Part shown: positions 16,026 to 56,792 of the stretch, piece by piece
How positions within the stretch are numbered: the stretch's first letter is position 1
Layout of the letters: the number at the start of each line of letters is the position of its first letter
NCBI GenBank assembly: GCA_950295325.1
Contig: OX485807.1
Location: 43,182,440 to 43,246,439 of the forward strand
Reading direction: 5' to 3'
Length of the DNA: 64,000 nucleotides
From: Polytrichum commune
Taxonomy: Eukaryota; Streptophyta; Polytrichopsida; Polytrichales; Polytrichaceae
Translations under genes and position numbers: made by a program
The notes under the pieces: model-generated
Told to the model about the DNA's origin: nothing
Seen by the model: only the letters and a program-made list of their open reading frames with translations
Database searches by the model: none

Positions 16026-16135
16026 CTAAACCCATATCAATATGGTTTATGTAGGAAGATCCAAACAATAGACCATGTTGTTGTGGTCCATATATCAAGT
16101 TGAGAGAAGGGGAAGTCTCAAATTAACGAGGTATT
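16026..16135. repeat. Direct repeat, right copy
   Basis: This is the partner of 13499-13620. It is followed by a GC-rich subterminal stretch (16140-16350, repeated 'gggcaaggcatcgggc') leading to the right end of the PIF/Harbinger element. Confidence 0.6.
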
Positions 16136-16365: not shown

Positions 16366-18760
16366 TAACACTGTTTGTCATTCCTTGTGAAAAAATTTGG
16401 ACATTACAGATTTACAGTGATGCAATACTGTCACTTACTACGTGGTTTTTCATCAAAATTTCAATTATCCATGACAGTAATGCATTACGTAACTGTTGAA
16501 ATGCAAAATATACCAAAAATGGATGAACTATAAGTAAATTGGGTTGAGAGTATTCATAAACTTATTCATAAGAAGTGTCATTAGACATCACATTATTCAC
16601 ATCCATAACAGTGTTATGTGGGATTGACATTATTCCACATAATAGTCCCCATATTCAGATTGAATGTGAAAATATTTTGTGGCATACTGTCAGTCCCACA
16701 AAACACTGTTATGGATATGAATATTGTTATGGAAAAGTTACCACAATGACATAGAGTATCATAGGTAGTATGATTTCATTTTGGGTCATTGGGCCTTGGA
16801 TAGGCACTTTTAGCTCTACTCCCACTTTTCTTTATGATGTGTGTTCAAGGTCAAACGCATGACGCATGCAAGATGATTAAACTTTAACGTAGACGTGCCA
16901 AGTTCAACTTCTTATTTGAATCAGACACCTATACATGAGTGCTATGTGATGTGATGTGGTGTGATGTGGTGTGGCTTCAAAAACAGATACCAAAAAGACA
17001 TGTGATTACAAGAAATTGGACTACGTGCTCAAAATATGATAATTATTATAGGTTTGATAGGCAACATCATTGAGGGGGCTTATATGAACATTTAAAATCA
17101 TGAGAATCTCCACTTTCATAATGAATAAAATATTTAAATGAGCTCCAAAAACTTTGAGGAAAGCGGCTACAAACTCAATTAGGATTTGTTAACAATCTCG
17201 AACTACTTGCATGTTTCATATCCTAGGAAAATTGGGCTAGTAAGAGGAAGTAGCTATTTAAGACCCATCTACCTTAGCAAATAGATTTCAAGGCCATCGT
17301 AACCATTTTCCTCATCGTTGATTTTTGGAGCTCTGAATATGTTTCTCTTAGTTGTCATCACAATGAAGATTGTCTATGTTATTAATTGGTCATATAGCTC
17401 CCCTCAATTATGTTGACTTCTTAGCCTAGAATGGCTAACAAAATTTGAGCATTTAGTCCACTCTCTTTTTAACACATGTCTTTTTGATGCTTGTTCTTAG
17501 ATCCATACATAACCACACACCACTCAAATATAGGTGTCAAATTGAGATTATAAAATAAGGCCCGCTCATCTTAAGGTATGTGGTCGTATGTGATTGTTGT
17601 TCTTGATCAAAACCCAACTATATGGCAAGGCTCGTAAACGACATTATAACCCGTAAACGACTCGTTGACTCAAAAATAGCATCAAAATTTCCAAATGAGT
17701 GGATTGAAGTCTAGCTAGAATGAATCAACCCTCAATCATATTTTGTTTTGAATGGAGCCCCTTCATCCACAAAGAATGAGGTTATGCAAACACCACGAAT
17801 GCCTAGAGAACATGTGCCCAAATGCGACATGGCCCGTCAAATGGAACAATACTTGGGATCACACCTCATGTTTACGGTGACCAAGGCTGACGACGTCCTT
17901 AGGTCATGTCCGGGTGATCTTTTATTCCGAGTGGATGCCTGCCCTCGACTCAACATTGAAATCCCCTTGTTAGTCAAGTGTCTACTATATATCGCCAGCT
18001 TCCTCACTCGAGAAACTTCACCCATGAGAAAGTGCAGTGGTGCTTTCCACAAGGGTGTTGTTTCCATGCACTCTTCTTGGGGTACGTGAGAAAGGTGCGA
18101 GTGTGTGGAAATCTCGACCATGCACGGCCGCCAAAATATTTATTTGTAGGTAACTAGAAATTTTTTAAAGACCGGATTCAAGAACAACTATAGCTGACTA
18201 GACAATTTTGCAAGGAGGTGTTATACATTCGAAGAAGTTCCGCTTCGTGGGTCGCTTCGGTTCGAGGTCTCAAGTATGCTCATGTCACTGGGGGTCGTCG
18301 AGAAACGCCTTTATACGATCACTCACACTGTTGGGCTCCGGAAAAAAAAACCTCCGTGTAACACTACCAACACTAGAAAGGATATGTAGTGTTTGATAAC
18401 CGTATGAAAGTAGGTAACAATAAATGTGAACTCAAACACTAAATATCAACTATGGTAATATGTGGAAGTTACATGTTTGAATTTAGTGTTAGTAAAGATA
18501 TAAAATCCATGTTTCACATGAAGGAAGGTGGCAGTAGGGAACGTGGCGGCACATTTATGTCTAACACTAATTGTCAAGGAATTGAAAATTAGTGTTGAGC
18601 AGGGTAGGGTGGTAACAACATTAAAAAAAATCAAATATTATGTATCATTTTTAGTGTAGTGACACTACAACACTACAATAGGATTTTGTGAACGGGTTGT
18701 ACTCAGCTTTGGTGTTATATATATATATATATATAAACTATAGTTGACTAGATTTTTTGA
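16366..18760. other. Non-coding unit DNA, copy A
   Basis: No supported gene is seen. The longest frames (17748-18089 plus strand and 17837-18121 minus strand) match no family I know, and the copy B counterpart lacks the same start. A MITE-like stretch near 18350-18670 has CACTAC/GTAGTG-rich ends. It also shares a patch ('tgtgaactcaaacactaaat') with 49105-49250 inside the 16.9-kb element. Confidence 0.5.
18716..18735. repeat. (TA)10 microsatellite
   Basis: A perfect TA run of 20 bases. The copy B counterpart at 39837-39872 has 18 units. Confidence 0.95.
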
Positions 18761-18764
18761 CAAA
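18761..18764. other. Empty insertion site of the 16.9-kb element in copy A
   Basis: A single CAAA lies in 'tttttgacaaaccaaattt'. Copy B has CAAA at both 39898-39901 and 56789-56792, with the element between. Confidence 0.9.
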
Positions 18765-21462
18765 CCAAATTTAAAACAACTATAGTTAACTACATTTTTT
18801 GGTAGGTCAAATATTGAACAACTATAGTTACAAAAGGCAACTAGTTTACTAATAGTTGAAGTAGTTGGTTAGTTGTCCAACTTCTTAAATATTTGCATCT
18901 AATATCTCATTTTGTCATATAATTGGTAGTCAAAAAATTTCCATGTCCCATTGTGGTTACATAGTGGCATTCCTTTGTTCTATTCATCTTAGTCATGTTG
19001 TGACACCTTTTGCATAAGATTAAGTGTTTTCCAAAATAAAATTATTGTGATTATGTCTAAGGGCCACTTCCACACAAGCCAAGAGCCCTGACCATGAAAT
19101 TGTGAGAGCTCAAAAGAAGTGTCCAAAGGTTGTTCCAAGACACTCTCCAAAATAATGTAGTGTGGTCACGGGCTCTCGAGTGTAGTGTGAAGTCATATGT
19201 GACTAGGCATGTAGGGTCCTCACACATGATATATATAATAAATCAACGGTTGTGAGATTTCGGAGTGCCATGGTCTCCTGGTTTTGTGGTTAGGCCTACC
19301 TCCAAGAGGTGGTTTTTGAAGATAGTCCAAGTGACCATGAAACATGATCCATACGATGCCATGTAGGAATCCATGTAGACTTTTGTAGTCTAGTTTTTGG
19401 TTACAAATAAACTCAGGGAAATACTCAGGGAAGACTTAAAAGATGATTTATGTATCATCTAGGTATCACATATAAGTTTTATTAGGACAACAGAAGGTTA
19501 TTTCCCTTGAATTCTGATTCAAGATAACAATTTAAAGTATGACTGAGGGATGGTAACTTAGGAATCTCTCTATGTCAGTACATGCAATTGTGGCGGTCAC
19601 TCATCTCCCTCTTATTATCCGCGTAATAGTCTGGCAATGAATTCATTTTAATTGGACCAAGTGTGGTGCACAAGCATAGGCACAACCATCGGCAATTGTC
19701 TCGCAAGAAGATCTCCTTTAAGTCTTTCTTACCCAAGCCAAAGGCACTTTGGTATGGGCAATAGTCTTTTATTTTTATATATATATATATATGTGTTGCA
19801 TTTTCAAGGGCTTGAAAAAATACATGCAAAGCTTTTCACTAGAAGCAAGTTTTTTTTTCATATATATCCTTAAGGCGATAATACAATTAAGTTGTAAATT
19901 TTGTTCTTTATTAGTAAATCTCGAGAGGCATACGAACCAAGGGCCTGACCCTACTTATTCTTTGTGATGTGTCCCCTTCTCTTCCACATATCATAGCCTT
20001 GACCACGTAACCTTTCACTCCCATCAGGCTACTAACTTTTCAAGTTCATTTCATCCTAGCGTATCCACTTCACATGAAAGGTTGCACGCACAATTACAAA
20101 TGCATACTACAATGACATCAAATCACTATAATTCACCTAGTTGTAAATTCCCTAGGTTATGATCTCATACTTATTCTACAATCTGAAACACTCATCTCCC
20201 AACATGGCTTCGTATATAGACTGTAATCCTCACCTTACTATTTAGAGTTGTTTCCTCAAGTCAATAAGTTATAGCACGGCCGCCAATTCTTGCAAAGACC
20301 ACATATTCTTATTAGCATTCACCACGTTAATTCCTTTAGTTTGACATAAGTAAATTTGCACTGGAGTCTCATGAATTTGCCTCTCTTTATAGTCTTACTC
20401 TAATGATGTTAGGCAATAGCGTGTAGCGTTCTCATGATCCTAAATTTCTACATAGGGTGAGGCTATAGTCTAAATTAGAAGTTACCCACCAATACGAAGG
20501 AAGGAGATGATGATATATAACATGACATTCAATCTCCAGTACAATCACCCTGGATGTTTCTTCTCCAATTATTATAAGGCAACAATCTTATTTCGTAAAA
20601 CACTCGAAACACAATATTGCAGGATCCAGTACAATCACACTGGATAACCTTAATTAATCCATATTAGCAGACAATTGCCTTGCAATTTACACATGCCACA
20701 TGTAGTTAAGGTTTTAGCTAGGGCTCAAACCAACCCAAAAAAACACAACCCAAGGACTAGGTCTCTAGGAAGACTAAACTATTGTTTATAAGGATTAATG
20801 TCACATTGGATTAAGGTTCTCATAACAATCTAGGTCTTTTATTCCTTTAATTCCTCTTTATCAAGCTTAACTTCCACTCTTATGGTTCATTGGTGCTTTG
20901 AGTTGTGTGTGGGTTTGTCCTATCTCACGACTCCTATCACTCTAATTTCATGCTTTCTAATTATGTCGTGAAGCTCAACAACTTTGGCAATAATATTTTC
21001 GTATCTTGGCAATAGTCTTCCAATGGATTTTTATCCTATTGGGGTTAGTATCTTTTTTCTTTAATAACATAATAATGCAATGCCATCAAGAGTTGAATAG
21101 TTCAACACAATAGTTCAATTAGTTATCTTACTTATATTAATAATTCTTCATAAACTTATCTCATTCATGAACCATCACACATAACCTCTTGGTATGTAAT
21201 CTCTGCACAATTCAAGATAAAACAAACATACATGGCTATATTTTGTATTAGCATATTACTTAATTAGCCAAGTGTTAATCATGTTAACAAGATAGGCAAT
21301 ATTAATCACTAATTTCTCAATTCATCATTTCAATGTCAAGTGACAAATTCACATATTAACTAATGATGATTGCTACACTCTCAGCTCACACTTCTTTCAC
21401 TTTCACGGTTAGCATGTTCCTGATATCATCATCAAACTACACTTATCTCCACTCTGATAGCA

Positions 21463-39878: not shown

Positions 39879-39901
39879 AGTTGACTAGATTTTTTGACAA
39901 A
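37496..39901. other. Non-coding unit DNA, copy B
   Basis: Counterpart of 16369-18764, with a few percent difference. It contains the (TA)18 run at 39837-39872 and ends in the left CAAA of the 16.9-kb insertion. No supported gene is seen. Confidence 0.5.
39837..39872. repeat. (TA)18 microsatellite
   Basis: Expanded counterpart of the (TA)10 run at 18716-18735. It lies 30 bases from the left end of the 16.9-kb element. Confidence 0.95.
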
Positions 39902-39929
39902 AACACTATATTCGTTATTTGGAGACTTT
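39902..39929 (+). repeat. Left terminal inverted repeat of the 16.9-kb element
   Basis: 28 of 28 bases are complementary to 56761-56788. The next bases diverge, though 'gagact' motifs recur just inside both ends. Confidence 0.97.
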
Positions 39930-40235
39930 TTGTTAATTTTGAGACTATTTAAGGACGTGGCTTTCACATTTATAGGAATGAAAACACTACAAATATGCTA
40001 TGTTCCCAATATGGAAACAAATATGAAACTCAAATGCATGTAATTACACATATAAAAATAGGGAAATGGGACAATTACAACATTTGCATATAGGAAATGG
40101 ATATCATATTCATTGAAGAGGGTCAAAATACAAAATGCAAGTGGAATATCCACTATTAGGCCAAAGCCCTAGAAACACAAATCCACATCTATATGTATTT
40201 TAATATAGCCTATACATTTGGACAATGAATAGGCG
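39930..40235. other. Left subterminal region of the 16.9-kb element
   Basis: AT-rich, non-coding stretch between the left end and the stop codon of the FCP1-like gene. It contains 'gagactattt' and 'gttcccaatatgg' motifs that resemble sequence near the right end. Confidence 0.5.
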
Positions 40236-41919
40236 TCACTCTTTTGTTTTTGAAATACTATTATTAGCCTTTGCGGCCGTTTCTTTTTCTTTTGCTTTCA
40301 TGGCGTCCATGGCTCTAAATATCTCGGCTCCGCAACTGTAACCTTGTTTATTCCCATTCCCAGCCCTCGAATATATGCCATTTTCCCATATTGGCCGACC
40401 CCCTACCGAATAAGTGGAATACGAACGTGTTTGGGAAACCGAACGTCTTGCACTCTTTCGTAGGGCCAAACAACGATCAGACTCGCAAGTCGCAGTCTTC
40501 AGTGTTCGCCTATCCAATGACGGAGTGGAGGATGCACGTCCCACATCCATGTATATTGGGGTCTGAAACAATGACCATAAATATATATAACGACGTGGGT
40601 TAGTATAAGTTACGGATGTAAGTCCGAAAAACCCAAGAATTTGAAATGCACTAAATTAATATGCGGACATCATGAACGAAAAACTTGAGAATGCCAATAG
40701 TGGGGCACCTTGGCCTTCGGGGCGGCGGTTTGATCTTCAGGGACATCGAGGGGAGTAGACACAAGCACAACCGGGACGTTCGTAAAGGCCAGGACATCAA
40801 TGTGGGGTTCATCCATGCAAAGACGCCTGGTCGACCGTGGGTTTCGAACGTGCTTCTCATTGCGGAGGGGAGATGGGGATGGGGGTAGAGCGTAATTGAG
40901 CTTTGCAACCTTTGGAGGAGGGCTATCAACAACTCCGTCTTCGAACCCCGAGTCTTTGGAGTAATCCACGGCAGAGGCGGCATCGACGGCCGAAAATTGA
41001 AATAGTGAAGGCATTGAAACGTCGGTCACACCAATGGAAGGGGAGCTGGGGCCCGGCTGAGATGTAGACATGCCATGTCCGAGACTTTGGGATGCTTGGT
41101 GAGGCAACTAGGCACAAAAATACATTTACAAAATAAGGAGAGAAATGTTAGATATAAACATGGAGAGTCCAAGTACGGAGCCAAAAAGTATCAAAGTTCT
41201 CATACCAATTTATTGAGTTCAGCAAAGCCGTACAACCTCCTAAATTCTGTATCTCTTGGGCCTAGAGGTCTATTGCCAATACGATTTGAGAGGACAAAAT
41301 CCGGGACACTTCCGGAGTGATGGGCAAGCCTTCTAATGTAGGGTCCTAATTCTAACTCTAGGAAGTTGTCGTTTCTATCGCCCTCCCAAGGGTTCGGGAA
41401 AATGCAGTTGCCCGGGGGGTTGAGAACGCTCTTCGCCGGGCTGTCGTCAATGAGGAGCGTGTTCTCCGGAGTGGGCCAATAACCTTGGGGGACCCCCTCC
41501 AACATTGGGACGCCCACCCAGAGGTTCTTCCTCAGCATCTTAAGGAATTGAGGTCCGCGGCCTCCTCCGACCTTGGGTACAATGTTGCCGCTACGGTCAT
41601 AAAGGTCATCGCAGTGTTCTTGACCGAGAAGCAAGCACGGCATTGCGAGTTCTCGGAAAAGGAAACTGACGACGGCCTTCGTGTTGTCCATCAGCATGGA
41701 GCTCCAGATGATGACATGGGCCAAGCCGAGGACCTCACGAAGGAAGCACCTCAAGCCGGGCCGGACGCGCACAACCTTCTTGTTAATTAGTGTATCGAAG
41801 CGCCCGCCGTAATCCATGTCTTGTGGAGTACGGTAGGGACCCTTGGACGCACTATTGGAGATATGTGTGGATTGACAAAGCACGCCATTGAGGTCAAATA
41901 TTATGAAGTTTTTCCTCAT
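40236..41919 (-). CDS. FCP1/NLI-interacting-factor-like HAD phosphatase carried by the transposon
   Basis: Members of this family are HAD-fold protein phosphatases, some of which act on the RNA polymerase II C-terminal domain. The exons are 41919-41206, 41107-40685 and 40562-40236. All junctions are GT-AG in phase 0 and give 487 residues. The ATG at 41919 (MRKNF) puts the nucleophile motif at residues 7-12 (IFDLNG); an in-frame extension to 41979 is possible. RVRPGL is at 51-56, IIWSS at 70-74 and LIDDS at 156-160, which is the order expected for the NIF/FCP1 HAD core. The second Asp of the DxD motif is Asn (D9-L-N11), so activity is uncertain. After residue 238 the chain is Pro/Ser-rich and not recognisable. 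It lies just inside the left end, on the same strand as the ParB-like gene. Its role in transposition is unknown. Confidence 0.78.
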
Positions 41920-42297
41920 AATATGGCTTGGTCTTTCGGCGGGGTGGCGACATATCTCCGACGGACCCTGTGATGGCACATACTACCTAGGTGAATGGCA
42001 CTACCCAGGAAAACCAAATGACAAGCATGCAAAAACGCAACAAAGAAATGCGAGGCAACAAGTATCCGAAGAACTATGCAGTTCAAAAAATTGTATTAAT
42101 GTGTTTGGTGATATACATTTCGCGAATAATTTACATTGTCACTAAAGGTCTCTCCTAAGATTAATTGAGCCTACACTAGCAAAATTGGATCCGCCGCCGC
42201 GGGCGAAGTCGAGATTCGAACTCGAAAATATGCACACGCCACGAAAGCTGGCTGACTGGGAACTTACGGACGCGCGTCCGTAAAGAGGGAGGCATGC
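41920..42297. other. Spacer between the two minus-strand genes
   Basis: It holds one perfect copy of the 20-bp palindrome (42264-42283) and a T-arm-like 17-mer (42209-42225). The rest is unremarkable and probably contains the promoter of the FCP1-like gene. Confidence 0.5.
42264..42283. repeat. 20-bp palindrome, isolated copy
   Basis: Perfect TTACGGACGCGCGTCCGTAA, about 35 bases from the stop codon of the ParB-like gene. Confidence 0.95.
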
Positions 42298-42375
42298 TCA
42301 AAGGTTGATTACCTCTTCAGCGGTGAGTTCCTCGCCGGCAGTGCCTCCCTCACCAGGCCCAGTTGCGGGGCCAGG

Positions 42376-42395
42376 TTCCGGACGCGCGTCCGTAA
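42376..42395. repeat. 20-bp palindrome copy inside coding exon
   Basis: One-base variant (TTCC at the left edge) inside the last exon of the ParB-like gene, where it is translated as FTDARP near the C terminus. Confidence 0.9.
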
Positions 42396-43760
42396 ATTCG
42401 CCCTGCGTGTCTTCCACCACCAACAAATCGGCTCCACCTGCTTGCGACGCTTGTGTGCCGACGAAAGGTTGATCCTCATGCGAGGAGTCTTGGCCCCCCC
42501 GCATATGTACATCTTCATCGGCGAGGGGGGCGTCGCCCATGTTGACATCTTCATCGTCTCCTATGGCGGGAGGGGAGGGCTCTGGAGCGGCAGCAACCTG
42601 GGGAGGGGGCGGGACAACCAACGCGGGGGCCGTATAGGTGTGCTCCGGTATGTACACCGTGTGGCTGCTAGAAGGAGTGCGCACCAGAACGGGGGGCACG
42701 GACATGGCGGGCTCGGGCGCTGCATACACCACCTGGGGTCTTGCCTGCAAGCTTGCCATCATGCTCATGAATTGTTGATTTTGAGCCATGAGGTCGGCGT
42801 GCCTCCGAGCAGACTCCAACCTAGCTTGCTCCATCTCAGCTTGGATGGCGGCCATCTTCCTGGCGTGCTCTTCGTTGGCCTCCCGGAGCCGCATGTCAAG
42901 CTCTTCCTTCATCCTCTTCTCCATCTTCTCGTCCAGCTCGGAGATGGACATGGGCTCTCTCTTCACCTTGCCTGGCTCAGAAGGCAAGGCGGAGATGGAA
43001 GCGTACAGCCTCACCTCATCCTCGTCTTCATCTGAGAGTTCCAAGACGGCGCCTTCGGGGTATTCGTTGTAAGGCGTCTTGTTCCTCTGCCGCCGGCTTG
43101 CACGGTAGGAGTCGATATCGGGCCTCGATATCAACTCTAGCATATCTCTACCTTCCATGGGCGGGAGCGCCGCCTGGTCACTGGGCTCTCCCCCACCAGA
43201 GGACGCCGTGCATCCGGTTTCTGCAGCAAGGTCCGCATCCCTCTCTGCCATAAGCCTTGCAGCACGAGATGGCCCCGCAGTGGAAGGAAGCCCAACTCGA
43301 GAAGTGGGAGTCCCAAAGGGTGATAGACTAGGCGTATTATGAGGCACCCGAATTGGAGTGACGTTGGGCTGCGCCTCCTCTGCATCCATGTCGTCTTCAC
43401 CCAGGAGATACGCCACGCGATACACTGGATGACGAGCAAGACCGCGCAAGTCTTCCTGCCTGGAGGGCTGTCCCCTTGGAGACATTGGATCATCGTCTCC
43501 ATCGCTGCCCCACCCGCCTGCATGAGAAGGCTCCTCTCTAGAGGCAAGAGGAACAACAGGATGTGGGGTAATGATATCCAAGAAGTCATTGAGATCCATT
43601 TTCTCTGCAAGCTTCCTGTGATCTTTGCACTCATCCATGTCGCCAACCCCCACAAACGAGTTAACCTGCAACCCAAGCATCTGCACCAAATAAAAAAAGT
43701 TAGTGGATTGTTGGTATCAAGATTGAATTGACGGGGAAGATGGACATACAAACATGATGC

Positions 43761-43838
43761 AGTGTGCATTTTACGGACGTGCGTCCGTAAAATGCACACT
43801 GGGTTAGGTTTGATAACTTTACGGCCGCACGGCCGTAA
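43761..43838. repeat. Extended palindrome plus variant copy in intron 2 of the ParB-like gene
   Basis: 43761-43800 is an almost perfect 40-bp inverted repeat built around a palindrome copy (43771-43790, ACGTGCGT centre). 43819-43838 is a variant with 'acggccgcacggccgt', and further decayed relatives lie near 43850 and 43895. All sit in the intron 43681-43952. Confidence 0.85.
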
Positions 43839-45337
43839 ATATGCACTGCAGCGCGGCCGCAAAGTTGAAATGAACTAGGTGGTTAAATTTTATGGTCGCG
43901 CAGCCATAAAGTTGCATCAGGTGGAGGCATGAAAGTTTTTTTAAGTACTTACCAATGCCGCATAAACAAATTTGGTCCCCCCGAAGACGTTGTACACTGT
44001 CTCACTCATCACAGTCACAGCCTTCAATACTCCTATGTAAAAGTCCATTCGGAGCTCGGTTGCCGGGCAGATTGCGAACATCGCCTCGTCCATTAGCTCC
44101 TTGGGGTGTGGAGGCGGCAACTGGTAAATTTTCTTGAACACGCTCTTCGCCTTTACAGGCAAACGCCCACTTGGCGAAGACTTCCGTGTCAAGAAATAGA
44201 GACATATAGCGCCGACCTGCTTTACCCCCCTTGCTTCTTCGATGACGGCGATGCCTTCCGTCTTCGCGGGGACGTATGTGCTGTGGAAGATATTGTATTC
44301 GAGATCCATCGTCGAGTTGTATAGGTCGACGACCGCTGCGGATCTCTCTTGGTCCACAATCCACAGCCACACGTTTGGCTCCAAAAGTGCAGGGGACCGA
44401 AAGCTCTTGAAAGATTTCAGGAAGTTGTCGTAGAAAGGGGTCCCCGGAGGAGGTTGTTTCCAAGAATTTGGAAATGCACGGAAATCAAAGATAGCAAAAG
44501 GACAACCCCGGGGGTCATCTCTCACAGTGGCCCACGAAGCATGGGTGTCCCACTTGCCGAACTTGAATTGTGATGTCACAGCGCAAAACCTCGCGACACC
44601 CTCGAATTTGGCATTCTTCTTTCTATCGAGGAAGTGTTTATATAAAGTTGTCTCCCTTTCGTCGATAGAACCTTTCTTCTCGTTCTTCCTTGAGCGCTGG
44701 GCCAAGAACGGAGATGCTGCTCTTATCAATGCCTTCATTGAGACGCCATTGATGTGGTATGCTATTTTCAATCCCCTCCAGTTGTCCTACACAATGTCAC
44801 CATCTGCATCTGTAAGGTTGTAGGCGGGTACCAATTTGCCTATCTCCCTCATAGCCAATGTCTTCTTCTTCCTGTATTCGCACCATTCCTTAATATGGTA
44901 CGTTGAAGGCTTCATAAACCTTGGTCGTTTGAGGAAGATTTTTGGATACGGCGCTGTCCTTCTCGGAGTCTCCTTAAGAAGGTGTTCTGCCGCCTTGTAA
45001 AGCTCGGCATCGAGCAACCCTTGGAGGGGACGGAAGAACTCTCTGAGGATTGGAGGCACCTTAATCTTCAGGTCCTCTTTGTACTTCTTCTCCGTCTCAA
45101 GGTTGATGAGTTCTCCGTTGCTGTGTGCATGGAAGACGCGCATCCAGATAGCCCAGGTCCTACCCGACGAAGTGATGAGCTTCAGTTCGCCCTTCAGATC
45201 TTGCACTGTCTTCATGCCGCTTTGCTTCATGTCAATGCTTGAGAACTTCGTCACAATCGCACTGCTGAATGCCTGCAAGTAGAGAAACAAATGAGTTGTT
45301 GAAATGAGATCAAAAAATGGAATGAGAACCGTCTAGT

Positions 45338-45431
45338 TTACGGACGCGCGTCCGTAAACTTGGAGCACACAAAGAATAAAGGGAAAGTTTACAGAAAGAG
45401 TGAAGGAGAATTTACGGACGCGCGTCCGTAA
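45338..45431. repeat. Two palindrome copies in intron 1 of the ParB-like gene
   Basis: Perfect copies at 45338-45357 and 45412-45431 within the 178-bp intron 45273-45450. Confidence 0.93.
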
Positions 45432-46786
45432 ATTCATTTGGGAATATTACCTGCCATTTGGGATTCTTGACGACTGCGTTGTCCCTCTCTTTTGGTGGAC
45501 AGCCGTGCTCCTCCCACAAGGTCCTACCAGCCACGATGTTGGCTGCCCATGACGCCTCAAACGCTTTGATTTTGTTTGTCTGGTTGAGGAAGGCAGATAT
45601 GGCGATGAGCTGATTGAAGTCCTCTGAATGCACGAGAAGTGCCTTCCAATATCGGATTGTGGGTTTCAGAGGGCTCTTCCAATTATCGTCTGCGAGGAGA
45701 GTTTTTGCCGCTTCCACGCTATGCTGGCCGTCCACGATGTAGAATTCCCCTTGCTTAATAATTGGCCAATGTTCTGGTGTGACCTCCACGATTGGATCCT
45801 TTGGGGTCACACATATGGTCTGCCGGTCAGCTTTCGGGTTGTTCATGATGTTGTTCATCTGCCACCAGACCCCGCTCTCTTCTTGCACCCGAGTATTCAT
45901 ACTCTCGGTGCCCTGGTGACATTTATAAACATCCACGTCAAATGTGAAATACCTGCCCATTGGCCAGCAGGCTTTCGTTTTTTCGTCGAACTCTTGTTGA
46001 ATTTTTGTTGATAGATCAGAGTTCGGGCGTTCTCCTTTCTTCAGAAGTGGTGCGACAGTAAGGGTGGAGCTGACATCTGGACCTTCGGTAAGTCCAGATG
46101 ACTCCATCTGTGAATGGGAGCGTTTACTGGATGGTCTGCTCCCTCTCGATGCTCCACTTTGGGACGGTCTTGGTCCTTCCGGGACTGTCTGTGGAACACG
46201 CGGTTGTCGTTCAGAAACGACTTTCTTCTTCCTTTTCCCCTTTCTGGACTCCAGGACTGCCCCATTCACTCTCGTGACATTGTTGAGGAGTCTTCCAAGC
46301 CGCTTACCCGTCCAAGGTGCATTGTATGCATAGTCTTGGAATTCAGTTGCAAGATTGAAGCAACCCGCATCCGGGCTGCCATTTTCGCATTCAGCCTTGT
46401 GGAATGGATGTCTGTGCTCATGAAGAAGAATTGTGACTCTGTCATCTTGTTTTTCAAGATCTATGACGACATAGTCACCTTGGGCCACTGCACACTCTAC
46501 TGACCAATTTTTAACTCTAACCCATTTATCTACGTCTATATTTTTGGTATTCATTTGATACCCAAATCTAAGTACGAATGTGTCATTCTCAAGTTTCTCT
46601 ACGTAAACTGTCCAGTTGTCTACTGTGTCTTCGACTGGCTTGTAGTGATCGTTGTGGCTTATATCTTTGATGGCGGGTGGAAGTGGAGGCGGAAGAAACT
46701 CAAATGTCTGGTCAATTGCAGGTCTTTTTGTAGATGCCATCTGCAAATGCAAAAAACAATGCTTAGCATCATGATCAATGTCAAGT

Positions 46787-47414
46787 TTACGGACGCACGT
46801 CCGTAAACTTTCCACAGGTTGTTTTGAATTATAATGTCAGAATGAACTATCCGAAAAGATTTTGCATATGTCAATACGAAATTTCACATGTAGTTTATGG
46901 ACGCGCATCCGTAAACTATCAACGGGTAGTTGGGGATGAGAATCTCAACTATGAACAAAGATAAGATTTAATAAGATAGTTCTAGTTTACGAACGCACGT
47001 CCTTAAACTAGTAGTTGGGTTTACGGGGTTAGCACTAATTTACGGACGTGTGTCCGGAAACTAGGAATGGGGTTTACTTGGATGTCACTAGTTTACGGAC
47101 GCGCGTCCGTAAACTAGGAATGGGGTTTACTCGGATGTCACTAGTTTACGGACGCGCGTCCGTAAACTACGAATTTGGTTTCCTCGGATGTCACTAGTTT
47201 ACGGACGCGCGTCCGTAAACTAGGAGTGGGGTTTACTTGGATGTCACTAGTTTACGGACGCGCGCCCGTAAATTAGGAAAATATACTGTCCATTAGTAAT
47301 AATATTGTTTTTTAAATATATCCAGAACTTACGGACGCGCGTCCGTAAGTTCTGGATATATGTTGCATGCTTCACCCACCTGGTGCGTCAAAGTTTACGG
47401 ACGCGCGTCCGTAA
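46787..47414. promoter_or_regulatory. Palindrome array upstream of the ParB-like gene
   Basis: Ten copies of the 20-bp palindrome or close variants start at 46787, 46895, 46987, 47040, 47093, 47146, 47199, 47252, 47329 and 47395. Those from 47040 to 47252 are spaced exactly 53 bases apart as a tandem repeat. The copy at 47329 sits in a perfect 46-bp palindrome (47316-47361). The array begins 47 bases 5' of the ATG, where a promoter or leader intron should be. A regulatory or transposase-binding role is inferred from position and number only. Confidence 0.72.
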
Positions 47415-48420
47415 ACTTCAAGCCCTACATTGGTTAATCTGGTCCTTGTTGAGAGGGTTCCGGATTTTCAGGAAGGTGGTTTTGTATATGATGCAAAATA
47501 CAAGCAAACCAGCAAAGAACAAAAAAAACCAAGCAATCAAACAATCAAACCAGCAAGTAAAAAAACAAGAAATAAACTAAAACACAATCAAACAAGCAAT
47601 CTATGTACTTATGCAAGAGGCCAGCAAGTAAACAAACAACCACGCCAGCAAGCAAAGCAAAGCCAAGCAGCAAGCACAAGCAAATCAAACAACTGTAAGC
47701 AAGCAAGCACACAAACAAAAGAGAGAAAAAACAATCACAAGCAAACACATAAACAAAAGATTAAAAAACAATCACAAATAAGCACAAGCAAGCACAACCA
47801 GCTAGCAAGCACAAACAATGACACAAGCAGCAGGCAATCAAACAATTAAACAAGCAAGTCAAAGCAAGAAATTAACTAAAACACAATCAAACAAGCAACC
47901 TATGTCATTATGCAAGAGGCCAGCAATCAAACAAGCAACCAAGCCAGCACAACAAAACACAAGCAAGCACAACCAGCAAGTACAAGCAATGCAAAGCAAA
48001 GCAAAGCAAATCAGCAAAGCAAAGCAAAGTAAAGCACAAGCCAAGAAAGCACAAGCAAAGCAAAGCAAAGCAAAAATAAAGCAAAGCACAAGCACAAAGC
48101 AAAGCAAAGCAAACCAGCAAGCACAAGAACAAACACAAACACAAACAACAAACAACCTTGTGAGGTGACCAGGAGCGCCAACAGCAAGAGGAGCAACGCC
48201 ACCAGCAAGAGGAGCGCGGAGAGGAGAGGAGCGCCAACAGCAAGAGGAGAGGAGCGCGGAGAGAAGCGCCAACAACAAGAGGAACGCGGGGAGGAGAGGG
48301 TTTAGGGTGACAACAACAAACCCTAGAGAAGCAAGAGAGGAGCGTGAGAAGAATGTGAGGAAGGAGAGCGAGAGAGGGGAGGCGGAGAAATGAGAGGGTG
48401 AAAATGGGCGAATGAAACCC
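47415..48420. repeat. Low-complexity AAGCA-type and purine-rich DNA
   Basis: From about 47490 to 48150 the plus strand is made of 'aagca', 'caaag' and 'acaa' motifs, including long AAGCAAAGC runs at 47985-48120. From 48170 to 48420 it shifts to 'gcaagaggagcgc' and 'gaggagagg' repeats. A duplicated patch ('aaactaaaacacaatcaaacaagcaa') occurs at 47574 and 47876. Open frames on either strand here are Lys/Gln- or Leu/Cys-rich and are artefacts. Confidence 0.85.
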
Positions 48421-48549
48421 TAAAACCCTTAAGTACTCAAGAGGAGCCCCCCAAACGCCCCGACTCCCAACGTCCCATCCACCCCGCACCCCATCGCCAC
48501 GTGGCTGAACCCTATAGGTTCATATTGGAGAGGTATGTGGCACACCTCT

Positions 48550-50225
48550 CCCTCTTTAGTAAGACACGTTTGGAAATCACAAAAAATGTCGTATTATCGA
48601 CATGTTGTCTTCTCGTTAATATGACAAACGCTGTAAAATTGTCGTACTATTGAGCGAATAAAAAAACAAAAGAAATATGAGCTTCAAAACACACACAACG
48701 GATGTAAGCAATTATTATATATATTGTATGAAATAATAACGTATAACTTCAAACAAATACAAGCGTTCTCAATAATTATTGAAATAAGAGTCCAGTGATC
48801 TGAGTCTAGTGTTGCCTACCTAAGTGAAACAAGTTGTCTAATAAAAAATTAGACAACAATGATGCATAATGTTGACGCTTTAATATTGTACGTGAAAAAA
48901 CATCATCCAAATGAACCAAATGCAAATTAACATTAAAATCAAAGCCTTCTACATTATTGATTCCCAAAACGGCATCCACCAACTCAACAACCATTATACA
49001 CACTTCTTGCTCAATATCATATGCATATAAGTATTAGTTGACATGTCACCATCATCCAGTCGCAACATCCAATTACACTAAATATCACTAACCCTATGAA
49101 AGTAAGGTACTTTTAACTGTGAACTCAAACACTAAATTTCAACTATTAATGGTAATAAGTGGAAGTGACATATAATGTGTACCATTAATTATATGATTAA
49201 AATTTAACAATGACAAAAGGAGAAGGGACATGGTAGTAACATAGCATGTAAGATACAAATTGTAAAAACATAGCACCAGTGACAATTGGGTTCTGCACCT
49301 TGTACTCGAATATAGTCTTTGTTTAAAATAATCTCTTGAAACCCTTATTTTCATTAAATAGTGGCAGGCTCTTGGTCTGAAACCTAAATATCACCCTTAT
49401 TTCATTTTTTCCATGTCGACATAAATATTTATATATTTCACATTTTCATTCGTAGGTTTATTTGGGAATTGTTGTTCTGCCAACCGACTATGGTGCTAAC
49501 CCAACTCACACCATATTACTTCATAACTCCACATGATAGATTGTTTGATATTAGTCCTTCAATGTAGCATCATATTTATGACAAAGCCCAACTAACATAA
49601 GGTGAAGATGCATGACCTGGAGTCATATTAGTCACCTTTCATTTATTAATACCCTAACCAAACCCATTCTACAATACAAATCCTAATGTTTATTAAGTTC
49701 ACAATGATAAGCCTAGGGAAGTTTTCGGTATTGAAACTATAGGACAATATGAGGTTGAGTAACTCAAGTGTAACATTTTTTTGTGGAGTTGTTGCAATAT
49801 GAAGGTAAGTGGACTTTAAATGACTAGTACACTAACTATCGCTTATTATTACGAATTACGATATGCTACAACTATTTATTGTATGATAATATATCATTGT
49901 CCACAATTAAATTACATCAATAAAAAAAATTTAAAGATTAAGCATTTTGTAAATACAAACATCGACATATGCCACTCTTTGGACTCCTCTATCAAGAGTC
50001 TTTGAAAATATTTGTATTTGTTTGGAGTTATTAGCTCTTATTTCATATCATCTATATTGCCTATTAAACTTGTTGTATATATATCTTTGCGCTCATTTTT
50101 ATTATGATAATTTCGTATTCCCTCAATAATATGACAACTTTACGCCACTTGTCATATGAATGAGAAGACGACACCTAGATAACATGACCTTTTTGTGTTT
50201 CTCACACTTGTCATACTAAAGAGGG
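48550..50225. mobile_element. Nested element with about 105-bp inverted ends
   Basis: The left end (48550-48655) and the right end (50120-50225, read inwards) both start CCCTCTTTAGTA. They stay alignable for roughly 105 bases, sharing 'cacaaaaa', 'tgtcttctc' and 'atatgacaa'. Identity looks near 70 percent. The 1.45-kb interior is AT-rich with no gene. No target duplication is visible. Long inverted ends suggest a non-autonomous Mutator-like element, but the class is not proven. Confidence 0.62.
49981..50060. repeat. Direct repeat of about 75 bp, first copy
   Basis: It shares 'tttgtatttgtttggagtta' and 'agctcttatttcata' with 50580-50656. It lies inside the nested element, while its partner lies outside. 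Confidence 0.75.
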
Positions 50226-52261
50226 TGAACAATAATGACATTCATGTTCGGTTTGGATGAATTTGCATGTTAATCTCTTTAATTCTTGGAGGACATAACT
50301 CTCGTCCGTCACTTGAGGTCATCCTAAGCTGGTATCAATAACATAACCTCGAAGTGCGAGGCTTGGAAGAAATTTCACCATATTTTGAGAAGAACGACAT
50401 AATACTATGGGTTGAGGGTTTAGGGTTTAAGGGGTTTAGCATGAATGCAAGTCTAGAACCTAGGGTGAGCATTCAACTACCCTACTTCTTGTAATCATGA
50501 GGCCAAATTGCTTGCCTCTCATTTGAGAGTTTTAATGATAAAATGAGGTAGTGGGGGATGTCAATCCAACTACACTATTTAGAATCTTGTGTCAAGAGTT
50601 CTTGAAAATGTTTGTATTTGTTTGGAGTTATAAGCTCTTATTTCATACCATCTAATAGGGTTGAAGGCATATGCCTATGATATTATCTTGCACAACATTA
50701 CGAATTAATTCAATCCCTTTGAACATAGGTCTAGTAAGCTTCTATTAAAAGTGCACGCAAGGGTATGTATTGAATTTACATCCCTCTTGTACATTAAACA
50801 ACCATCGGGATTCATTGAATCCTTCCACGAGCTTGTATATCACCTACATCAAGTAGTAGCAAACTGTTTTTTATTCTAGAGTTTTGTTTCCATGGTGACA
50901 TGGATTGATGTGTTAAGTACTCCATTAAAGAATACCAATTAATATATAAGATCTTCAAAACCTTTCATCAAAAGTATATGTTAAGAGCAAATGGCTAAAG
51001 CCGGCTTGGAACATAAATATTATAATGATCTTCAATGTTTTGAAGCCTTAATTGTTTCCATATTTGTATCCCTTCATTTCATTTTAAACTTGGGGTCACA
51101 TCAAAGTATAACAAGTCCCGGCTAAATCTTCTACTTGTATGTAAGGGGTACATTTCACCCAAAAAAAGTAAGATTCAAAAAAATGAAAGTTAGGGTTACA
51201 TAACCCAAGTTTTATGGCTCTCATTAAAGGATACCAAATGAAGATTTTGTACATGGCAATTAGAATTGTTATTGACAGTTTCATGAATATTTGTTCAATG
51301 TCATATACTTTTTCACCACTTACTCCATCTTGCAAAATAATTGGTGTTGTTCAATAACTAAGAATGCTTGCAACCAAACCCTAAACCCTAAACCCACCAA
51401 ACCCTAAATCCTACCTAGGTCCATAGATGTTATACTTTCATGGCCTCACGGAAATCAAAGTTTCTGTATGTATTAATAATTTTTTGTGTAGGTGGGGAAA
51501 TTAAAAGGGTTGGATGGTAGGGTGGTGGCCGATTGTATTACAATATTAAATGCAAGATGAGAGGAGAGAACATGATATTCTAATATCATAAGATTGTATG
51601 CAAAACAATTAAATAGTTGCTAGATTATTTCCGAAGCACATATATTTTTATAGTCCATGGACTACAAATGTTGTTGTGGTGGTTGATTTTTTATACGATT
51701 CTATAATTTTTTGTCCACAAATTCTACAATGAACTCTTAATATTGGGTACTCCATTAATATAAACCCCCCCTCAAGAATGTTTATTGCTCATATAATATT
51801 AACCAACTTGCTTTGTTGTACACCATAAATATATAGATGCCTTTTGCTTTGTCATTATGTGGAGTCATGGTCAAATGCATGTTGGCCGCCATGAATACAC
51901 ATTCCATTGCAAGGCTGGCATTCTCCATGTTGGAATATTAGGTTTTTGTTTTTATGAAAGAGTTGGCGGCTAGTATCCTATGCTGAAGAAAGGATCCAAG
52001 GGAAGACGACGAGTACTTAAGGGAAATACCCCCACTAAGGGACTCTTTTTGCATCTCAGATGTGGGTTGCGCTCTTGAGACCCTTGTAGTGTGGTGGATA
52101 CTTGTTTCGCGCAGGTATAGATCCTATTGCAATGAACCTATTATACCCTAAACTCATATTCGATTTGCACTATCTGGATCTCTGAATGCGATGGATTCTA
52201 TTTCTGACAGGTATTGTTCACGCTTCAAGTGTCCTATTATGACGCCGCAAACTACGGAACT
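50226..52261. other. Non-coding centre of the 16.9-kb element, right part
   Basis: AT-rich DNA without a supported gene. It holds the second copy of the direct repeat (50580-50656), a telomere-like CCCTAAA run (51376-51395), a reverse-strand 'gggtttagggttta' at about 50426-50440, and otherwise nothing recognisable. Confidence 0.5.
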
Positions 52262-52997
52262 TTACGGACGCGCGTCCGTAAACATTACATCTCTTGACTT
52301 ATTTGCTTATTGAATATCTCATATCTTATTGAATCTCTCAGTGGCTCGTTGCATCATTGAGTATCTCAATCTATTTTCATTGGCTCATTGAGCATTTACA
52401 AGTAGGTTTACGGACGCGCGTCCGTAAACATTCATCTTTTTGGTGTCACATGGTGGTATGTCATCTACAATGTGGGCTGTGAATTATTATCTGTTTTGAT
52501 AGTATGCATATTTGTTCTGATGAATATTTACGGACGCGCGTCCGTAAATCTTGAACCTTTTGCATCTGTTCTAGTAATGAGGTAAAGGTAGGTTTTCGGA
52601 CGCGCGTCCGTAAACATACAAACCTCTTGCATCTGTTCTAGTAATGAGGTAAAGGTAGGTTTACGGACGCACGTCCGTAAACATACAAACCTCTTGCATC
52701 TGTTTAGTAATGAGGTAAAGGTATGTTTACGGACGCGCGTCCGTAAACAGACAAACCGTTGGTACACATTCAAATACATTACTGGTAAGGCCAGGAGGTA
52801 AAATTTAGTGTAAATGTAAATGGGGCTGGGACTTCTTGGTTCCTTGCAACCCTATTTGTTTTGGACACAATTATCATTTGACATAGGGATGTTTACGGAC
52901 GGGCGTCCGTAAACATACATTGTTTAATTTGCCAAGACGTTTGCGCCTAACCTTGACATCTCTTATCAGATAATGATTTGCGGACGGGCGTCCGTAA
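52262..52997. promoter_or_regulatory. Palindrome array upstream of the transposase-like gene
   Basis: Eight copies or variants of the 20-bp palindrome start at 52262, 52408, 52528, 52594, 52661, 52727, 52893 and 52978. The copies at 52528, 52594, 52661 and 52727 are 66-67 bases apart as a tandem repeat. The last ends 54 bases before the ATG at 53052. The same palindrome fronts the divergent ParB-like gene, so a shared binding factor is a reasonable guess. Confidence 0.72.
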
Positions 52998-53051
52998 ACA
53001 TACACTGCTTATATTTTATCTCATTCTTCATTTGGCTCTCTTGTAGTGGCC

Positions 53052-56000
53052 ATGGATTCCGACGTCGGTGAAAGTGCGTCCGATTTCTCCTCGGAACCGT
53101 CAAGCTATGCTAGCGAGTTTGAAGATGTCGTGGAACAGGAAGCTACAAATGGTGTGGCCGATGCAGATGATGAAATCATACCACCATGTGAGGGTTATTC
53201 GCGGGAGCAGTGGGTTGATCTTGATGTTGTACTACTCAATGCATGTGTCGTTCCCGTGGCCAACGGTGTTTGTGGGAACTCGAATCCAACGGATTGTATT
53301 GATGCAAAACCCCTCGGGGAGGACGATGTTGGGGTGTGCATATTGAATTCCTTACTTCCATCGGAAGTGCCTCTTGGTTGGAGGTTCTCTCTCCGTCGAT
53401 GGCCTTTGCGAAGTGTTCATCACGATGGTGTGAGCTTGTGGGATCAATCCCGCCGATTTGAGCAACTGCAACAGTCTTTGTTCGCCACAATGCGTCCCAG
53501 ACAAGGTCGTCGTAAATATGATTCCGTTCGTGTGCCTCGTGAACCCACGCAGCGTCGTCGAGATCATACATTGGGAGACACATCTATTAGGTCCGTAGCC
53601 ACAAAGGATTGTTGTGCGAAGAAGTGCTGCCAACTATTTCCCCGTGGCAAAATCAAATCTTTGAGGCAAGAGATGTGGCTTGCCGACTTTCATATGCGGT
53701 TTGCCAAGAAACTTGAAGTACATCGCAACATGCACTTGGATGCCGGAGGTTGTAAGGTTGTGACCTTGGAAAATATAGAAGTTTGTTGCCGGGCATGGTA
53801 CATTATTCATGCCGTTTCAAAGGCAGATTTTTATAGGTTCCGGAACTACTCGCTGCAAGGAAGGCGTTCTCGGTTTCATGGCAACTCAGGTACAAAGAAG
53901 CCCAGGGAGGCAACACTCCAAGCGGCTGCAACTCTGTCAACCATCATTATGCCATTAGCGGATGCGATGCCACACAAGACACGCACTTTGCCGTCGGGGG
54001 AAAAGGTTGTTCAGATGGTTTTACCCACAGGGACAAAATGGAAGAACATACTCGTGGATGTTAATGAAGTTGGTGAAAATGTTGGATGTGGGCCGATTTC
54101 GTTGTCAAAATTGAGTGTGATCAAGAATCAACAGTTCGCTGAATACATTACGAAGAGACCCGGGGATAAGTTTGCTAGGTGTTCTACTTGTGAAAAATAT
54201 AAAGGTCTTCGAGACGCACATCCAATAGGGACCGAGTCGCACACCAGACATCAACAAAAATACATTGAGCATGTCAACAACCAGGAGGCACACCGTCAAG
54301 ACTACTACAAGAATCGCGCCTTATCGATAATGAGGCCGAACGAGGTGTTGACAATCATTCATGACAAAATGGACCATGCGAAGACCGCTTGCCCTTGTTA
54401 TGCGCGGAAAATAAAGGCCACAGATGGATATTTCAAGTTGCCAATATCTGTCACAGGTTCGTTGGTTTTCATTTTTTTGGCGTGCCCACATACTCATTTT
54501 TAAGAGTTACGGATGCGCATCCGTAACTCGTCTGTGCATGGTTGTTCCTTACTTGCGGCAATATCATATTTCCTTCATATATATGATATTGGAATGTACT
54601 TCTCATTTGTATGTCTTAATTCAGGTATGATTGCACATGGCCATGTGGACGTCAAGTATGCACATTATGGCTTGGATTTCTATCCAGGCGACGCCAATCA
54701 TACCGTAGGGTCTTTTGCAAAACTTCTACGAGATCTTGAGATCATCCTCGCGTGCTCTTTTTGTTGGATGTGGAACAACTCCGATTTATGAGGCTGTGCT
54801 AGAGGGGAAGGAAGTTTGTCTATCTTCACTTCAAGAACCGCCTGAACAACCCGTTCTTGCTAAACCTTTGCCTCGAACTCTACACGTGCAACTTGACAAT
54901 TGTGCCAAAGATAACAAATGTCGATACGTGTTTTGTTTCTGGTCATTGCTGGTAGCCAAGGGCATTTTCACAGAAGTGTTTGTGTCTTTTTTGATGGTTG
55001 GCCACACGCACGATGACATCGACGCTTCATTTGGACGTTGGAGTATGAAGTTGCACGAGGAGGATTTTCCGACAATTCCTCTTCTCATGAAATCATATAT
55101 GGATTTGGACAATGTGCCAGTCATTCCACATTTGATTGAAGAAGTGCCCGATTTCAAACGGTTTATAAAACCATTCATTCTTAAGGGGTCTGACCGACTA
55201 GTGGGCCACACCAAGGCTCAACAATTCCGATTTTATATGCGTGACGATGGTCTGCCCGCCATGCAATTCAAAGTTTTGTGCACTTCCCCGAATTGGGGTC
55301 CGGAGGAAGGGATACTCATTTGGCGCAAAAACGAAGATGGCAAATGTGTGCTACCTGATGGTGAGCCGAAGCCTTGCACACCCAACCCCATGAGGAATGG
55401 GCCAGAAATCATCAAAGGTATATATGGATTCATTGAGTATTAGAAAGAATTGTGCGAGGAAGACATCACAAGACGTGTTAGGGATACCCACGAACCATTG
55501 ATTGCGTATTGGGATCGCATTCGCACGGCATTGATAGCACCCGATGTTGATACACATTCATGTTTGACACAAGGGTTTTGGCCACAAAGTCGAGTGACAG
55601 TCGTGGAATCTGAGGCCATGTTGTTCAACAATGGGGACGTTCGTGAAGAGTTCGCTGCGGACGATCATTATGTTGGCCCTGCTCGCAATCGACCGGAGCC
55701 GTCGTTTCGTGTTGGGGTTGATTGCCACGAAGGTTATTTGCTGCTCGTACGTGCTGGGGATGAGGAGCATCCCAAGCCAATTTGGTTGGTGAAAGCATTG
55801 TCATCACCAAACTTTGTTTCAACTAGTCCAAATTTTCGCCAAATTGAGGTGGAATATTGCCGTCCAAGCACCAAAGATCAAAATGTGCTCCGGACATATT
55901 TAGGGTGGGACACCAAAAAAGGTTTCAAATGGACAATGGACTCATCATACGAACCGGTTTGGATAAACACAGATACCATACTTTGTGCTTGGAAACCACG

Positions 56001-56142
56001 CAAAGGTTCGAAATCAGAGACAATGACCATCCCGCAAAAACATATAGATTTTGCCAAAGACAACTTGGCACGTATCGCAGCTGCGGAAAACGATCTTGAA
56101 AATGGAAATGAAGTTGAAGATGAAGATGAAGAGAGGGAATGA
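53052..56142 (+). pseudogene. DUF7869-like transposase gene, frameshifted and with an internal TAG
   Basis: Exon 1 is 53052-54456. Exon 2 starts at 54625 (phase 1, acag|gttc to ttcag|gt) and would end at 56142. Exon 1 has an acidic N terminus, a Cys-rich part ('CCAKKCC', 'CSTCEKYK') and 'IIHDKMDHAKTACP' near residue 440. Exon 2 has 'LHVQLDNCAKDNKCR' and 'FLMVGHTHDDIDASFGRW', the signature I associate with DUF7869 proteins. The three Asp-bearing motifs could be a DDE/D-type triad. Around 54741 the frame shifts by one base, and TAG at 55441-55443 interrupts a frame that otherwise stays open to an acidic C terminus. A palindrome copy lies in the intron. This copy is unlikely to make active protein, and mobilisation would need a source elsewhere. 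Confidence 0.82.
54507..54526. repeat. Palindrome variant in the transposase intron
   Basis: TTACGGATGCGCATCCGTAA is a perfect palindrome with two compensating changes from the consensus. It is extended by 'gag' and 'ctc' on its flanks. Confidence 0.92.
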
Positions 56143-56760
56143 TATTGACGTACGTCGGGACCAAAGTTAGTTGAAATGTGTATTTGTTTGTCATTAATAT
56201 ATGACATTGGGGTTGAATATTATATTAGACACATTTTATAGATTACAACTAGTATAATATCATTGCATGACTGTATTGATTTACGGATGTGGAATCACCC
56301 TTCCCATGCGCTATCAAATGTTTTCTAGTATATGTTTATATTTACGGATGTGGAATCCAAACTATTTAATATTGCATATTATGTTAATTTGTAAATTCCA
56401 ATTAACATTGTCAATTTATTTTAAGTATTGTTGCAGTTGGGATGTGCCATTCAATTCAACCACAATAGGCCAAGAGCTTTATGTTTCGGATGCGATTCCA
56501 AGAGTCAATACATATAAAATTAGATGGCTATTTATGGATTCATTACTTTTGTTCAACACAATCCCAAAAAAACAAATAATCGTGTAATTGTGTGATTTGA
56601 TTCTCATCCCCATACTTACTATATTTAGTAATATATATAGTTCCATCGCATATGCATTTCTAAAACATTATGATGTAATTGTTCCCGATGTTCCCGATGT
56701 TCCCTACGTTCACAATATTCACATCCGAAACTATGGGTCCAATTTATTTTGAGACTTTCC
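56143..56760. other. Right subterminal region of the 16.9-kb element
   Basis: Non-coding. It has half-palindrome motifs 'ttacggatgtggaatc' at about 56281 and 56342, tandem 'gttcccgat' near 56683-56705, and 'gagacttt' just inside the inverted repeat. Confidence 0.55.
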
Positions 56761-56788
56761 AAAGTCTCCAAATAACGAATATAGTGTT
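56761..56788 (-). repeat. Right terminal inverted repeat of the 16.9-kb element
   Basis: Exact partner of 39902-39929, followed by the CAAA duplication at 56789-56792. Confidence 0.97.
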
Positions 56789-56792
56789 CAAA

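Follow-up and report, generated by a model that had tools for sequence, protein, structure and literature searches.

What kind of element occupies positions 39902-56788 of a 64,000-nucleotide stretch of the moss Polytrichum commune (GenBank assembly GCA_950295325.1, contig OX485807.1, positions 43,182,440 to 43,246,439; hereafter the window), and what are the two genes that accompany its transposase doing there? The insertion, 16,887 bp long, is a degraded copy of a giant DNA transposon family with a DUF7869 transposase, 4-bp target-site duplications and a Sola1-like layout. An earlier reading made from the letters alone (the sequence-only reading) had claimed exact ends, with a 28/28 inverted repeat and a CAAA duplication, and an empty site in a sister copy of the surrounding DNA; all of these were recovered on re-measurement. 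Its three spliced genes in two divergent modules were likewise found, the transposase gene on the plus strand and the genes for an FCP1-like and a DGQH-bearing, ParB-like protein on the minus strand. Exons and splices of this window copy, A0, were read by eye from reading frames. The features are as follows.

39902-39929, plus strand: left terminal inverted repeat, AACACTATATTCGTTATTTGGAGACTTT, 28/28 bases matched to the right end
56761-56788, minus strand: right terminal inverted repeat, 28/28 bases matched to the left end
39898-39901, unstranded: target-site duplication CAAA, left
56789-56792, unstranded: target-site duplication CAAA, right
18738-18780, unstranded: empty site in the sister duplicate, with a single CAAA at 18761-18764
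40670-41919, minus strand: FCP1/SCP-like HAD gene, exon 1 about 41206-41919, exon 2 about 40670-41107 (PF03031, 1.6e-13)
42298-46740, minus strand: ParB-like (DGQH) accessory gene, exons 45451-46740, 43953-45272 and 42298-43680
53052-56142, plus strand: DUF7869 transposase gene, exons 53052-54456 and about 54625-56142 (PF25273, 3.5e-37)

Complete relatives of A0 were A1 (17,886 bp), B (17,343 bp), C (16,552 bp), D (16,599 bp) and E (24,986 bp), and gene order and orientation were the same throughout lineages A-E. All six complete elements are flanked by 4-bp target duplications: CAAA, TAAG, AAAT, CTTT, TCAT (D) and TACC (E), the last obtained by placing the element end at ATGGGG. A 4-bp duplication is characteristic of the Sola superfamily, and the six duplications agree with it. 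The passages of PMC9587614 describe a TTAA-specific 4-bp duplication for Kolobok, which none of the six elements has (superfamily names follow passages of PMC4455052 and PMC9587614). A sixth lineage, F, is a distant and partial relative with a DUF7869-type transposase frame (35% identity over 150 amino acids) and a DGQH reading frame; a search of its stretch for A-type ends found none, and, being incomplete, it was excluded from the substitution and palindrome-position analyses below.

Comparison with A1, B and C indicates that A0 is a damaged copy in which the transposase and ParB-like genes are broken. The frame of its FCP1-like gene is open. The ParB-like gene carries an in-frame TAG near 44785, in exon 43953-45272, and the second exon of the transposase gene carries a frameshift near 54.7-54.8 kb and an in-frame TAG at 55441-55443. 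At both stop positions A1, B and C have TGG, which rules out a changed genetic code, and the frameshift region is a single frame in all three. A0 was probably either mobilized in trans or broken after landing. This broken state, together with the palindromes described below, adds to what the sequence-only reading had observed.

The accessory genes belong to the transposon family rather than to the host. In the genome searched (407.8 Mb in 64 contigs), the 28-bp end had 348 matches with at most one mismatch (164 forward and 184 reverse), compared with none for the reversed control pattern. Contig C8 of this genome holds an open rbcL frame of 482 amino acids whose best PDB matches are Rubisco large chains (top score 1082 bits) of plants and green algae, in agreement with a green plant as host. 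Protein searches listed the best-scoring 94 (ParB-like exon), 150 (FCP1-like exon) and 150 (transposase exon) of more than 1,000 candidates. Among the 94 listed ParB-like matches, 76 were followed on their own strand by an FCP1-like match and had a transposase match upstream on the opposite strand; both partners were present for 18 of the 23 listed matches at 95% identity or above and for 58 of the remaining 71. Controls with positions shifted by 0.5-2 Mb gave 0-1 for either partner. For the D class, to which 76 of the 150 listed transposase matches were assigned by matched range, 50 of those 76 had a D-type FCP1 partner at a median of 13.3 kb (shift controls 0-1). Linkage extends to lineages in which the ParB-like proteins share no more than 24-58% identity. 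The sequence-only reading had named transposase-only copies, or accessory genes living as host genes outside such ends, as the findings that would speak against a travelling cargo; the linkage among the matches listed does not bear this out, and it rules out ordinary host genes or chance passengers. The three genes are a set inherited together in a high-copy, recently active family.

Divergence within this set is uneven. Matched pieces of the A1 and B proteins were 94-100% and 68-91% identical, respectively, to those of the window. Identity to the window proteins was 34-89% in C (ParB-like exons 34-58%, FCP1-like 60-68%, transposase 78-89%) and, in D, 56-72% for the transposase, 32-41% for the ParB-like protein and 41-44% for the FCP1-like protein. 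In E, the transposase was 32-63% identical and the FCP1-like protein, depending on query, 31-38%, and the ParB-like gene was detected only by C queries, at 24-35% identity. The FCP1-like protein alignment gave identities of 89, 62 and 41% in B, C and D, and of the three proteins of B, C, D and E the ParB-like one had diverged furthest. Between A1 and B, the ratio of nonsynonymous to synonymous substitution rates (dN/dS), calculated after pairwise removal of codons with gaps or stops and with ratios lacking a usable dS discarded, was 0.147 for the FCP1-like gene, 0.092 and 0.103 for ParB-like exons, and 0.153 and 0.114 for transposase exons. Ratios of 0.09-0.15 imply that all three genes were kept as proteins. 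The corresponding dS was 1.5-1.6 for the ParB-like gene, 0.42 for the FCP1-like gene and 0.28-0.33 for the transposase gene.

Two of the family labels given by the sequence-only reading, DUF7869 and FCP1-like, are supported by profile matches. The transposase scored 128.3 bits against DUF7869 (PF25273; cut-off 26), an E-class fragment scored 58.7 bits, and transposases of this type had at least 150 matches in the genome. The motifs HDKMD (in A, D and E), QLDNC and GHTHDDID (GHTHxDID; both in A-D) are, on our own reading, candidates for the catalytic DDD triad. The name DUF7869 was not found in the literature searched, so no described superfamily can be attached to it. The FCP1-like protein scored 51.1 bits in the window and 43.2 bits in E against PF03031 (cut-off 21.8). 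The catalytic motif of FCP1/SCP phosphatases is DxDx(T/V); in place of DLDxxL, exemplified by DLDETL in PDB entry 2hhl, the moss proteins have DLNGVL in A-D and DVNGIL in E, and the second aspartate of DxD is thus asparagine throughout A-E.

DRQT and DGQHS are invariant stretches of the ParB-like protein in A-D, E has HGQH and F has DGQH; we take a DGQH-type motif to be diagnostic of the ParB/DGQHR (ParB-Srx fold) group. In its second part, DFRxxP, VWLWIV and FGG[TS]K..AA are invariant in A-D, the second exon of the gene ending in FGGTK..AA, which resembles methyltransferase motif I. This order of motifs resembles that of the N6/N4 methyltransferase class in which motif I comes last, and hhalign of the second part with seven proteins (Escherichia coli YhdJ and six phage methyltransferases) placed FGGTK on motif I (DPFxGSGT-like) with a score of 21.97. 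No catalytic [DNS]PP[YFW] (DPPY-type) motif was seen by eye in the second-exon alignments of A-D, where DFRxxP is conserved instead. Other matches of the ParB-like protein were weak (phrog_1033, 0.09; PF20188, 0.18), and the ParB and methyltransferase labels, which rest on motifs, are best treated as leads. Searches of viral contigs with the ParB-like, methyltransferase-like and transposase alignments, and of a genome contig collection with the ParB-like alignment, found no relatives, and phage searches gave none beyond matches at an E-value of about 1; a viral origin of the element has no support from these contig and phage searches.

The lineages also differ in a repeated palindrome. A0 contains 16 copies of TTACGGACGnnCGTCCGTAA, which is absent from the remaining 47,113 bases of the window. 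The same palindrome occurs 14 times in A1 and 12 times in B, while C has 13 copies of TTACGAACGnnCGTTCGTAA, in which each arm carries a single symmetrical change. There are 37 copies of TTTGGGTCGnnCGACCCAAA in D, 14 of CCACGGGTGnnCACCCGTGG in E and 21 of GGTGnGGCATATGCCnCACC in the F stretch. Counts of these five motifs in the seven sequences fall on the diagonal except for one site, and none was present in the examined flanks of A0, B, C, D and E. Genome-wide, the first four motifs had 1310 (TTACGGACGnnCGTCCGTAA), 3737 (TTACGAACGnnCGTTCGTAA), 9731 (TTTGGGTCGnnCGACCCAAA) and 819 (CCACGGGTGnnCACCCGTGG) exact sites, 15,597 in sum, and the reversed pattern of each had none. The two centre bases are widely variable in D and partly so in C, and are CG in 12 of the 16 A0 sites. 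In A0, the sites lie as follows.

46787-47414, unstranded: palindrome cluster upstream of the ParB-like gene, with TTACGGACGnnCGTCCGTAA at 46787, 47093, 47146, 47199, 47329 and 47395, some of them in a 53-bp tandem repeat
52262-52912, unstranded: palindrome cluster upstream of the transposase gene, with sites at 52262, 52408, 52528, 52661, 52727 and 52893
45338-45431, unstranded: two palindromes in intron 1 of the ParB-like gene
43771-43790, unstranded: palindrome in intron 2 of the ParB-like gene, with a variant palindrome at 43818
42264-42283, unstranded: palindrome between the ParB-like and FCP1-like genes

This arrangement recurs across lineages. Positions were analysed in A0, B, C, D and E (A1 being left out), with approximate, manually set gene bounds in B-E. 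The exact sites of A0, B, C and D are confined to four places: the 1.5 kb upstream of the ParB-like gene, the 2 kb upstream of the transposase gene, the ParB-like gene itself, and the interval between that gene and the FCP1-like gene. The 2.0-3.3 kb separating the two upstream zones hold none; in E, 11 of 14 sites fall in the same zones. In all five elements the terminal 500 bp are free of sites, and the site closest to each end is 615-4556 bp from it. The palindromes differ among lineages A/B, C, D, E and F, and they recur chiefly ahead of the ParB-like and transposase genes and inside the ParB-like gene, not at the ends. Of 50 listed A/B-type sites, 47 were within 12 kb of a listed element gene. 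Tandem units are 53 and 66-67 bp apart in A, 135 and 95 bp in B, and 158-159 bp in part of C; A and B share one palindrome despite these unlike unit lengths and a ParB-like dS of about 1.5-1.6.

Some sites can fall in coding sequence: a near-perfect palindrome at about 42375-42394, in the coding part of the last ParB-like exon of A0, reads as FTDARP, and coding sites in D read as FGSSDPN and FGSADPN. Dense D-type arrays with no listed gene match tied to them occur on contig C1 at 438280-478008, 1180628-1190811 and 2115506-2159675, and a dense C-type array at 640865-646098; these are possible further subfamilies or gene-less derivatives. A palindrome family around GGATGGCCGTTAACGGCCATCC, found outside the E element at 16257-16847 of the joined pieces L009 and L010, is possibly a further lineage.

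We consider it somewhat probable, from sequence comparison, that the ParB-like protein reads the palindromes of its own lineage and thereby controls expression of the element, most likely as an anti-silencing factor. The protein would bind as a dimer to its own-lineage palindromes and, once bound, would govern transcription of the element's genes, most likely as an activator that counters silencing, as VANC does for VANDAL transposons. The ParB-like protein is the preferred reader because it bears a DNA-partition-type motif and is the most diverged of the three proteins in B-E, and anti-silencing is the more likely direction because the copies are many and near-identical and the arrays are large and extend into introns. 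The FCP1 family comprises phosphatases of the RNA polymerase II C-terminal domain; as a guess from that family knowledge, the FCP1-like protein may act on the transcription machinery in the same cause.

Several points weigh against this reading. The transposase or a host protein could instead be what binds the palindromes, and the direction, activation or repression, is not fixed by any observation. As for the ParB/DGQHR label of the sequence-only reading, the motif stood, and profile and fold comparison gave no clear signal: the DGQH part, aligned by hhalign to one domain of phage ParB type, reached 13.5, a score surpassed by at least 8 of 40 shuffles, and two single-sequence AlphaFold models, at a mean predicted local distance difference test score of 32, are too poor for fold reading. 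The methyltransferase-part score was exceeded by 1 of 30 column shuffles, and neither part had a match of note among Pfam, NCBIfam and PDB sequences. Some palindrome sites depart from the pattern: B holds one C-type site (the sole off-diagonal count), three of the 14 E sites lie outside the zones (one each in the FCP1-like gene, the transposase gene and the middle stretch), and just 38 of 100 listed D-type sites have a listed D gene match within 16 kb, the other 62 lying farther off. Among the matches listed, linkage is also incomplete, with 18 of the 94 ParB-like matches lacking one or both partners, although lists of 94-150 out of more than 1,000 candidates do not establish that the partners are absent; 4 of the 94 also had a misplaced FCP1-like match within 40 kb and 11 a misplaced transposase match within 50 kb. 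Among the 76 listed D-class transposase matches, 26 had no FCP1 partner among the matches listed and 10 had a misplaced one. Finally, the A1-B dS of the ParB-like gene is about 4-6 times that of its neighbours; the contrast suggests either segment exchange between lineages, making the element a mosaic, or a different rate in a fast-evolving ParB-like gene.

Alternatively, the ParB-like protein could be an autorepressor that, in the manner of an operator and repressor, sits on the palindromes of both promoters, shuts off the transposase and so limits copy number. The sites upstream of both divergent genes in A-E are consistent with such control, as is their form, dyad symmetry around a free 2-bp centre being typical of dimeric repressors. 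However, a simple operator would require neither arrays as large as the 37 sites of D nor intronic sites, and the many near-identical copies do not suggest tight repression; we hold this alternative to be rather doubtful. Another possibility, which we regard as unlikely, is self-marking, with the methyltransferase-like part modifying the palindromes or DNA close to them, a role put forward for algal ParB-methyltransferase accessory proteins; the authors make this proposal for the Ectocarpus Sola1 gene in the passages of PMC12477816. The FGG[TS]K..AA motif at the end of the second part, which hhalign aligned to motif I of N6/N4 methyltransferases, would fit this role, whereas the conservation of DFRxxP where a DPPY-type motif was sought by eye, and a score that shuffled columns can surpass, do not.

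Binding of the palindromes by the transposase or a transposition complex seems highly improbable. The palindromes are element-specific and repeated, but their distance from the ends led us to reject subterminal transposase sites as unlikely; moreover, the 28-bp terminal repeats contain no palindrome, and the A/B and C transposases are 77-79% identical in exon 1 while their palindromes already differ. Functionless tandem repeats or small palindromic insertions, suggested by the many sites in tandem units, can be all but dismissed given that the palindrome is identical in A and B where unit spacing is not, that A-D, and for the most part E, show a common pattern of positions, and that reversed-pattern controls were zero.

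Several known systems resemble the moss family in part. Passages of PMC12477816 describe a 21.5-kb Ectocarpus element, Sola1-1_Ec32, whose opposite-strand accessory gene encodes a 1104-amino-acid protein with ParB-like and N4C/N6A DNA methyltransferase parts, and cite ParB-methyltransferase cases from green and red algae (Iyer et al. 2011; Petroll et al. 2025). Like the moss element, Sola1-1_Ec32 is a giant DNA transposon with a large ParB-like accessory gene on the strand opposite the transposase; unlike it, the passages mention no palindromes and no phosphatase gene. This one published Sola1 case shares its layout with the moss element; the methyltransferase-like part of the moss protein shows no DPPY motif and matches weakly. 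The phage Javan108 protein QBX22982.1 is annotated as an adenine methyltransferase, and we read its N-terminal part as ParB-type; the moss protein is eukaryotic and spliced, has DGQH rather than GHGR, and shows no detectable sequence similarity beyond motifs.

VANDAL elements are MULEs whose proteins are not known to be related to those of the moss element, and bacterial ParB-parS systems pair a ParB protein with repeated palindromes on the same replicon. According to passages of PMC5735166, the motif arrays of VANC21 and VANC6 change with the transposon's own regulator; as in the moss family, they are lineage-specific, often tandem, lie in non-coding parts, introns and upstream regions, and evolve with a self-encoded accessory protein. 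Unlike the moss palindromes, the VANC motifs (YAGTATTAY; AGTTGTCC or AGTTGTAC) are described in those passages as short, in one orientation and not palindromic.

The sequence-only reading did not know the cargo set from any described plant superfamily; that the set is unknown holds in part: a ParB-like and methyltransferase gene is known from Ectocarpus Sola1 in the passages of PMC12477816, while an FCP1-like gene was not found in the literature searched. Neither lineage-specific palindromes nor a phosphatase (FCP1-like) gene was found described for such elements in that literature, most subscription papers and preprints being outside its coverage. The known kind is thus a giant DNA transposon with a ParB-type accessory protein; the lineage-specific palindromes and the FCP1-like cargo gene appear to be new. 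ParB-type accessory proteins have earlier been proposed to bind or modify their own transposons, and the passages of PMC12477816 name no binding site. Candidate sites are now visible as perfect palindromes of about 20 bp, in four well-defined versions and a fifth in the distant relative F, at recurrent places before genes, and with these versions the proposal can be examined by a simple binding experiment that brings its own specificity controls. If true, the reading would provide a second, independent case of VANC-type self-recognition in plants, and the FCP1-like gene is added to the known cargo of DNA transposons. More broadly, and only tentatively, since we lean slightly towards doubt, this may be a eukaryotic transposon family in which a ParB-like protein and lineage-specific parS-like arrays in promoters and introns evolve in concert; the thousands of copies in a genome would then form mutually blind self-recognition groups controlling silencing, with an FCP1-type phosphatase as partner.

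The DNA around the element is itself duplicated. Window positions 1-25967 and 29271-64000 are tandem segmental duplicates that share 99.1% identity where they align, in stretches of 9,625 and 8,226 bases, and the first duplicate carries an aldehyde oxidase/xanthine dehydrogenase-like host gene (Fer2_2, FAD_binding_5 and MoCoBD domains). Present in the first duplicate only is an extra 8.2 kb at 8203-16364, perhaps a Harbinger-type insertion; the reading frame at 8192-9694 in this segment has a NAM-associated domain (PF14303, 6.7e-8), and 49-bp tandem repeats occupy 11794-12260 within it.

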